From Acidobacteriota bacterium (GTDB lineage: Bacteria; Acidobacteriota; Aminicenantia; S016-38), in the NCBI GenBank assembly GCA_015486055.1, contig WFSJ01000042.1, forward strand, positions 25,357 to 89,356: 64,000 bases of DNA, given 5' to 3'. Positions 59,952 to 61,347 of this stretch are shown piece after piece. Below the pieces are notes generated by a model. The model had not been told where the DNA came from. It searched no databases and worked only from the letters and a program-made list of their open reading frames with translations. Made by a program: the position numbers and the translations under genes. How positions within the stretch are numbered: position 1 is the first letter of the stretch; each line of letters opens with the position of its first letter.

Positions 59952-60860
59952 CTATTCTTTCCAGATAAAGGGATTATCCTCGCTTATAATTCTTGCTTTC
60001 CCGAAGGCCTTTTTAAGATAATCGGGAAGTGAAAAACTTGAAAGGAAAAGAGGAACATTAAGATATTTAAGCCCTTCAATTCCCAACGAATTTATTCTTC
60101 TTATTACTTCATCCTCATCAAAAAGGAGGGGATCGGTATCCTTTGAGGCAAGGTTAAATCCCCAGGGAGAGCTGAAGGAAAATATAAAGGACCAGTAAGG
60201 TCTGACGATGGGAAAGATTTCCTTTAATGTGGCATAAATGGAGGCAAAGAACCCATTATAATAGGGGTCTGCGCTTCCTGACTGGACAGTGAGGATTCCA
60301 TTATCATTAAGGTGTTCGTGAATGATTCTAAAATATTCTTCTGTAAATAATTTTATTGAAGGACTACCTTCTAAAGGTTCAGTAAGGTCACTTATTATAA
60401 TATCAAATTTCTCATCGGTCCTTTTGAGAAACTGATATGCGTCCTCAATCCTGAGCTCTGTCTTGGAATCTTCTAAGGCACCTCTCGACCATTCAGGTAA
60501 GTACTTTTTACAAAGTTCCACGAGCTCCCCGTCAATGTCCACCATAACGGCTCTCTTAACCGAAGAGGCTCTTAGAACTTCCCTGAGGGTGGCTCCTTCA
60601 CCACCTCCTATTATAAGAACATCCTTCGGATATCCATGGGTTACAAGGGAAGGAATTACCAAAGATTCATGGAAAACGAACTCATCTACTTCTGCCGATT
60701 GAATCTTTTTATCTAAAAACAGGGTTTTCCCGAAAACTCCAAGATTAAGCACATCTACCTTCTGGAACTTGGTTCGACAGCTATATAAATATTCCTTTAC
60801 ATTATATCCATAAAGAAGATACTTCGTGAACTCTTCAAAAAACCATAAGCCCTCGCTCAA
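59952..60860 (-). CDS. speE: Polyamine aminopropyltransferase (spermidine synthase)
   Basis: LFLDKKIQSAEVDEFVFHESLV, LIIGGGEGATLREVLR, IIISDLTEP. Confidence 0.95.
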   Translation of the reverse strand: MSEGLWFFEEFTKYLLYGYNVKEYLYSCRTKFQKVDVLNLGVFGKTLFLDKKIQSAEVDEFVFHESLVIPSLVTHGYPKDVLIIGGGEGATLREVLRASSVKRAVMVDIDGELVELCKKYLPEWSRGALEDSKTELRIEDAYQFLKRTDEKFDIIISDLTEPLEGSPSIKLFTEEYFRIIHEHLNDNGILTVQSGSADPYYNGFFASIYATLKEIFPIVRPYWSFIFSFSSPWGFNLASKDTDPLLFDEDEVIRRINSLGIEGLKYLNVPLFLSSFSLPDYLKKAFGKARIISEDNPFIWKE

Positions 60861-61249
60861 GATGCCATTTCCTGCTGGGAGTAGGAGATAATTTCAGGAA
60901 GAATTCCCCGTTTTACCTCCAATATTGTCATGTGTTCCGGCCTAAAGCTCTCTTTAAGTATCTTTATAGCCTTGTCAATGTCAATTTTAGGATCACAGTA
61001 AAATAAATCTACTGCCGCATAGTTATTTTCCGGCCATGTGTGAATCGTATAATGAGATTCTTTTATTACTACCACCCCTGAAACACCATAAGGAAGAAAT
61101 TGGTGAAAAAATATTTCTACTACATTTGAATTTGATTCCTTTGCTGCCCTTTCCATTGCCTTTCCCACATAATCAACACCCTTAAGGGTTTGAGAATCAC
61201 ACCCATACATCTCAATTAAAAGATGCAATCCCAAAGCTTCTCTGCTCAA
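60857..61249 (-). CDS. speD: S-adenosylmethionine decarboxylase proenzyme
   Basis: KESHYTIHTWPENNYAAVDLFYC (self-cleaving Ser); TTG start with AAGGAGGTG. Confidence 0.95.
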   Translation of the reverse strand: MSREALGLHLLIEMYGCDSQTLKGVDYVGKAMERAAKESNSNVVEIFFHQFLPYGVSGVVVIKESHYTIHTWPENNYAAVDLFYCDPKIDIDKAIKILKESFRPEHMTILEVKRGILPEIISYSQQEMAS

Positions 61250-61274
61250 TTGGCACCTCCTTAAAGTTTTCTAA

Positions 61275-61328
61275 CTACCAGTTGTCAATGTAAATTTTCC
61301 CGTGGTGAAACCTTCGTCGGGAACTCAT
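61275..61328 (-). CDS. 17-aa small ORF MSSRRRFHHGKIYIDNW, candidate leader peptide of speD-speE
   Basis: AGGAGG-GTTT-ATG; complete ORF in the rpmB-speD gap; 25 nt before the speD start. Confidence 0.5.
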   Translation of the reverse strand: MSSRRRFHHGKIYIDNW

Positions 61329-61347
61329 AAACCCTCCTTTTATCTTT

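Follow-up and report, generated by a model that had tools for sequence, protein, structure and literature searches.

A conserved 17-codon open reading frame (ORF), MSSRRRFHHGKIYIDNW followed by a stop codon, lies directly upstream of speD on the minus strand of the window, the 64,000-nt stretch of DNA analyzed here (ORF at 61275..61328), and matching small ORFs precede speD in at least 32 genomes from two phyla. The best explanation, which we hold with modest confidence, is that the ORF encodes a cis-acting termination-arrest leader peptide for the feedback repression of speD; ribosome stalling would be the underlying event, a polyamine the presumed ligand and repression the predicted sign of the response. 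The leader family spans two largely uncultured phyla and is marked by an 8-residue motif that ends exactly at the stop codon. The very small size of the peptide makes polyamine sensing by the ribosome directly testable. If the explanation is true, the ORF would represent a bacterial leader peptide through which polyamine synthesis is controlled by its own product, with a ligand-sensing motif of only about 6–8 residues. It would also parallel, apparently independently, the control that MAGDIS exerts over this enzyme in mammals.

On the minus strand the leader ORF reads ATG AGT TCC CGA CGA AGG TTT CAC CAC GGG AAA ATT TAC ATT GAC AAC TGG TAG, with its ATG at 61328-61326 and its TAG at 61277-61275. 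A Shine-Dalgarno (SD) sequence, AGGAGG, is present at 61333..61338 and is separated from the ATG by GTTT. The ORF begins 19 nt past the end (61348) of rpmB (L28; 61348..61539, minus strand; TIGR00009) and ends 25 nt ahead of the TTG start codon (61249) of speD. This 25-nt spacer (61250..61274) is A-rich and contains a separate SD for speD, AAGGAGGTG, at 61262-61254. The preliminary description of this locus had reported the ORF, its SD, its spacing and the distinct speD SD, and re-reading of the sequence confirmed all of these. The predicted target, speD (60857..61249, minus strand), encodes a class 1b S-adenosylmethionine decarboxylase that scores 130 bits against TIGR03330 (cutoff 75.65). 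It shares an operon with speE (59952..60860, minus strand), a polyamine aminopropyltransferase gene by its best matches, PRK00811 and TIGR00417, both of which score somewhat under their curated cutoffs. As looked for in a leader peptide, the small ORF is on the same strand as the gene it would regulate, directly before it, and has its own SD and start codon. The genome from which the window derives (1.86 Mb in 60 contigs) groups with Candidatus Aminicenantes, Acidobacteriota.

Homologous leaders were sought in one genome per species for 85,462 species, along with a search of the WOR-3 phylum (WOR-3/Hydrothermota is the Caldifarciminota of NCBI). Thirty-two genomes carry a matching small ORF ahead of speD, 13 from Aminicenantes/Acidobacteriota and 19 from WOR-3, including Hydrothermota. 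SpeD-anchored synteny showed that speD is preceded by a small, SD-bearing ORF in 7/7 genomes of the window's family, the leaders being MSSRRRFHHGKIYIDNW, MSSRRKLCLGKIYVDNW, MSSRRRLCLGKIYVDNW and, in four genomes, MSSDRLCVGKIYIDNW. Five genomes of family f2 carry MLKCNQKSLFFIDDL (three genomes), MSKCSKNGLFFIDDL or MFPMYAKFLFLDDF, and one genome of family f6 carries MLRQIGSKKSSQIIDDW; all 13 genomes of the class with this SpeD type possess a leader ORF with its own SD. The WOR-3/Hydrothermota leaders are MCEGDLCVGRVGILFWDNW, MCEGDLCVGRVGILYWDNW, MCDGDLCVGRVGILYWDNW, MLDGDRCPRICVGLLFVDNW, MHDGDRCTRTCVGLLFVDNW, MPADGDRCYRECVGLLFVDNW, MSEGDRCKHCVGLLYVDNW, MLESDRCVKCIGLLYWDNW, MCEYARCCLYLGRLYLDNW, MCDYARCSLYLGRLYLDNW, MCEYARCSLYQGMLYLDNW, MESESERIVGILYVDNW, MESESEKIVGILYIDNW, MKCESYKKLWGLLYVDNW, MESESNSKDGLLYIDNW and MRSDEDQPGRRYTTFLFVDNW. 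The WOR-3 and Aminicenantes genomes are metagenome-assembled, some from shared samples, but their leaders and SpeD proteins are not identical and are spread over many separate contigs. Nearly all homologous leaders are preceded by a strong SD, and they range in length from 14 to 21 residues. The gene upstream of the leader varies, with rpmB occupying this position in the window's family only and not in f2 or WOR-3, and the gene downstream is always speD. This direct succession of rpmB, leader and speD in the window's family is an unusual pairing of a ribosomal protein gene with polyamine synthesis. No leader was found at the speD loci of Armatimonadota, Bacillota, Bacteroidota, Elusimicrobiota, Vulcanimicrobiota or archaea. 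The range of the leader may exceed two phyla, as Aquificota and Nitrospirota lay outside the search.

The homologues converge on a common C-terminus, G-[KLIR]-[IL]-[YF]-[IVLW]-D-[ND]-[WLF]-stop. Residues were counted over 27 distinct 9-codon C-termini. The aspartate at position -3 from the stop codon (Asp15 in the window, 61286-61284) is found in 27/27, position -2 is Asn in 22/27 and Asp in 5/27, and position -1 is Trp in 23/27, Leu in 3/27 and Phe in 1/27. Further upstream, position -4 is Ile, Val, Leu or Trp, position -5 is Tyr or Phe in 26/27, and position -8 is Gly in 22/27. All three stop codons are in use (TGA 13, TAG 10 and TAA 4; n=27), which indicates that what is kept is a stop, whichever codon supplies it. 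Toward the N-terminus, the first half of the leader changes freely, including the RRR and HH of the window leader. The Arg/His richness that had been put forward as the key feature of the peptide is a trait of the window genome alone; its relatives carry leaders such as MSSDRLCVGKIYIDNW or MESESERIVGILYVDNW.

Comparison of nonsynonymous and synonymous changes agrees with these counts. Over the last 7 codons, pN/pS was 0.31 for all leaders, 0.23 for leaders ending in DNW, 0.20 for WOR-3 and 0.09 for the window's family; when only the last 5 codons were counted, the values were 0.20, 0.12, 0.15 and 0.12, respectively. In the two shifted frames, pN/pS was 1.6-1.8 for the full, DNW and WOR-3 sets, and 0.45-0.59 for the window's family, which is a small and closely related set. 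Purifying selection thus acts on the C-terminus of the peptide, covering the last ~8 residues and the stop, so that the functional segment shows the amino-acid conservation looked for in a leader peptide. The two comparisons proposed in the preliminary description, a homologue and synteny search upstream of speD and a Ka/Ks-type analysis, both came out in favor of a conserved peptide: amino-acid conservation, whose absence would have spoken against it, is present, and in-frame pN/pS (0.12-0.31) is in the purifying range. In the window, the conserved block is GKIYIDNW plus the stop codon (61275..61301, minus strand), which is the predicted arrest motif on the basis of pN/pS, residue counts and its near-uniqueness in each leader-bearing genome.

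This near-uniqueness was seen when 31 leader-bearing genomes were scanned with a DNA pattern for [FY]-x-D-[ND]-[WL]-stop. It gave 24 matches in 24 genomes, 23 of which are the speD leader and one of which ends in TGG rather than a stop; a reversed control pattern gave two matches. A stricter pattern matched in 13 of 396 Acidobacteriota genomes, five of these matches being leaders of the window's family, and a looser pattern matched in 40 of 147 WOR-3 genomes. One match, at a contig end of G443, is a further speD leader. Among the matches away from speD that were inspected in these two genome sets, which covered a part of the WOR-3 matches, none is followed by an SD, and the motif was rejected as an element of other genes. 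Control sequence taken from these loci, 316,888 nt in all, contained a single 12-mer encoding D[ND][WLF]-stop. Because this 12-mer is rare and in-frame homologues precede speD in 32 genomes, the window ORF is far beyond chance.

A tree of 110 SpeD proteins, 27 of them from leader-bearing loci, was used to trace the history of the leader. All but one of the leader rows (26/27) fall in one SpeD clade with support of 98/94; the remaining one, L164, has a long branch and lies in a neighboring WOR-3 clade. The presence of a leader requires four changes on the tree as compared to 24.5 with shuffled labels. This value and the single-clade grouping indicate that the leader travels with a SpeD lineage common to two phyla, whether through descent or through transfer of the gene together with its leader. 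About a third of the leader-rich clade, consisting of 12 Armatimonadota rows and L159, is leaderless. In close leaderless Armatimonadota relatives (L078-L087 and L090), a long open frame (234-432 nt) is found upstream of the usual SpeD start, which suggests an N-terminal extension or fusion of SpeD.

In f2, in f6 and at almost every WOR-3 locus, the leader is preceded by a TTGACA-N16/17-TATAAT promoter that is close to perfect, with 11-12 of 12 positions matching. The gap between the end of this promoter and the start codon of the leader is 22-33 nt, or 56 and 66 nt in two WOR-3 loci. The match is 10 of 12 in L164 and L013, and no promoter was recognized upstream of the leader in L149. This spacing makes the leader the first ORF of the speD mRNA in f2, in f6 and at almost every WOR-3 locus, which puts it close to the 5’ end of the transcript, as looked for in a leader peptide. 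Such a position is not seen in the window's family, in which rpmB precedes; no consensus promoter was seen before the leader there, and it is probably transcribed together with rpmB. Where the speD start could be assigned, 22-35 A-rich nt separate the leader stop from it, and in most loci the speD SD begins 11-21 nt past the leader stop. The speD start codons are mostly TTG or GTG. At four WOR-3 loci tested (L077, L152, L155 and L164), a gene for pyruvoyl-dependent arginine decarboxylase (PvlArgDC) follows speE; by gene order, leader-speD-speE-PvlArgDC is a putative compact arginine-to-polyamine operon.

When 28 leaders were folded, most lineages showed a predicted hairpin within the 5’ half of the ORF, and the mean folding z was -1.2. 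In the window, the preliminary description had noted a CCCG..CGGG hairpin inside the ORF, and folding recovers it as TTCCCG/CGGGAA in the N-terminal half (61297..61323, minus strand). Its 3’ arm in the window's family ends ~20 nt before the leader stop, close to where a ribosome halted on that codon would have its trailing edge. The stems differ by lineage (CCGA/TCGG, GGAG-CCGA/TCGG-CTCC, ATGCCC/GGGCAT, GGGAG/CTCCC and GATCC/GGATC), and the hairpin is weak or absent in L009, L011, L013 and L155-L161. Among 14 aligned leaders, the paired fraction was above that of slid versions and the covariation score was not clearly so; covariation is modest, with compensatory change at columns 15/44 and 16/43. 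The leader gave no match to Rfam at gathering or permissive thresholds. Pairing of the speD SD with the leader averaged 0.14, with no consistent masking. This lack of sequestration counts against an ermC-like switch that unmasks the SD, and such a switch was rejected.

These features can be joined in a model of termination arrest. A motif of ~8 residues ending at any stop codon, a free N-terminus, a position in cis and a short gap to speD point to a peptide that hinders its own release. As the ribosome translates the leader, the nascent ...[YF][IVL]DNW would sit in the exit tunnel beside the peptidyl transferase center, where spermidine or a similar polyamine, as the pathway's product, would when abundant slow release at the leader's own stop. 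Because SpeD is the enzyme committed to spermidine synthesis, the product is the likely signal; SAM, dcSAM and putrescine/agmatine are possible alternative ligands. A ribosome paused with a stop codon in its A site covers about 10 nt past the stop, and an initiating 30S subunit requires about 20 nt upstream of the start codon. At stop-to-start distances of 22-35 nt the two would usually collide, which predicts repression: the stalled ribosome would cover or crowd the speD ribosome-binding site, and translation of speD, and of speE via coupling, would drop. Where the spacing is longest (33-35 nt), the start site would be only marginally occluded. The arrest model does not require the hairpin, which some lineages lack. 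The leaderless third of the leader-rich SpeD clade is a point against the model.

The same arrest could instead induce speD, with a pause at an abundant precursor (agmatine, putrescine, ornithine or SAM) raising expression through mRNA protection, Rho blocking or the opening of structure, as for speFL and mdtU. The two bacterial polyamine-gene leaders whose sign is known, speFL and mdtU, do induce (PMC7815308), and a hairpin lies within most of the leader ORFs. However, the 22-35 A-rich nt between stop and start leave hardly enough space for a switch based on Rho or a terminator, and the leader does not consistently mask the speD SD, so that induction is considered unlikely. Doubt is greater for a purely structural role of the region as a riboswitch-like RNA, with the ORF as a by-product. 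The folding z and the compensatory changes give some support to such an element, but covariation scores are similar in slid controls, Rfam holds no match, and the 3’ half of the leader varies at synonymous sites while retaining its stop. An element consisting of the hairpin alone was rejected, as the hairpin is missing from several lineages and its covariation is weak against slid controls.

It is just as doubtful that the leader merely delivers ribosomes to speD by translational coupling, with its peptide sequence irrelevant. The short gap and the TTG or GTG starts of speD are what coupling would predict, but purifying selection on the peptide and its invariant Asp at -3 are not, and speD possesses a strong SD of its own. 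A free-standing micro-protein working in trans would also be a conserved ORF bearing the marks of translation, yet conservation is confined to the last ~8 residues before the stop, length and N-terminus vary freely, and the ORF adjoins speD in every case found. We consider this reading, which corresponds to the overlooked small protein of the preliminary description, very improbable. The least credible of the alternatives is amino-acid attenuation through the conserved Trp codon. Trp occupies position -1 in most leaders and some WOR-3 leaders end in WDNW, but Leu or Phe replaces it in f2, no terminator or alternative structure is present, and metabolism offers no rationale for the control of speD by tryptophan. 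Repressive termination arrest thus remains the preferred explanation. The original proposal of a regulatory speD leader peptide is strongly supported by cross-phylum residue conservation, fixed position, purifying selection and first-ORF placement; the Arg/His content and the resemblance to speFL from which it had been argued were not supported.

Two other types of candidate speD leader were observed. In Acidobacteriota family f22 (L039, L040, L041 and L042), MVSDLSYDRCVGKKVWGINNFLQRDYTNG-stop and its relatives lie just upstream of speD with their own SD and share a conserved C-terminus, LQR[DE]Y[ST]N[GR]-stop. A third type, MCFFLCRFELNPLTSDFGGAKECKP-stop, is found in L170, L171 and L178 (WOR-3), and runs at its 3’ end into the SD and start codon of speD. 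It is conserved, though part of this may reflect the speD SD itself.

The literature and Rfam searched, which covered little of the subscription literature, yielded no prior account of a leader peptide for a bacterial speD. One study of Bacillus subtilis labels an Hfq-bound RNA as 'unknown or speD leader region', and the passage concerned makes no mention of a peptide (PMC3574147). Several uORFs of polyamine genes are known in bacteria. MdtU, the E. coli mdtJI leader, is a spermidine-related uORF that is most strongly conserved at its C-terminus, as is the speD leader (PMC7815308). It differs in having 34 codons and a stop 106 nt before mdtJ, in inducing an exporter rather than acting on synthesis, and in involving Rho. 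The odc1 motif of Alphaproteobacteria combines a uORF with RNA structure upstream of an ornithine decarboxylase gene (PMC8632094); gene and phylum are different, and its RBS is inside the RNA structure.

SpeFL of E. coli and Salmonella is likewise a bacterial leader peptide that precedes a polyamine-synthesis gene and acts by termination arrest. Its gene is speF, for ornithine decarboxylase, whereas the gene downstream of the leaders described here is speD (TIGR03330); it senses ornithine and induces, via Rho and RNA structure. At 34 residues, SpeFL is longer than the speD leader. TnaC and SpeFL are both bacterial termination-arrest peptides that work with a metabolite, and TnaC blocks release-factor action at its own stop with a small-molecule ligand (PMC8429421). 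TnaC differs in its ligand, which is Trp, in its 24 residues, and in its induction of the unrelated tna genes through Rho.

Of the two parallels drawn in the preliminary description, MAGDIS proved to be the better one, and the Arg/His likeness to speFL was not supported. When spermidine is high, the stop codon of the MAGDIS uORF of AMD1 causes ribosomes to pause, and AMD1 initiation is blocked (PMC13025110, PMC4505036). Both are short ORFs ahead of the gene for the same enzyme, both have Asp at position -3 (MAG-D-I-S-stop as compared to ...-D-N-W-stop), and blocking of initiation from the ORF's own stop is shown there and proposed here. The response of MAGDIS to polyamines has been shown; that of the speD leader is presumed by analogy alone. 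MAGDIS is eukaryotic, has six residues and acts on preinitiation complexes on a scanned mRNA, whereas the speD leaders are bacterial, longer and of other sequence, and do not belong to the MAGDIS hexapeptide. Its target is the eukaryotic class 2 AdoMetDC, and a common origin is not implied. It is possible, though somewhat less likely than not, that bacteria and animals independently evolved a short, spermidine-sensing uORF with arrest at its own stop and Asp third from the end, at the same metabolic step.
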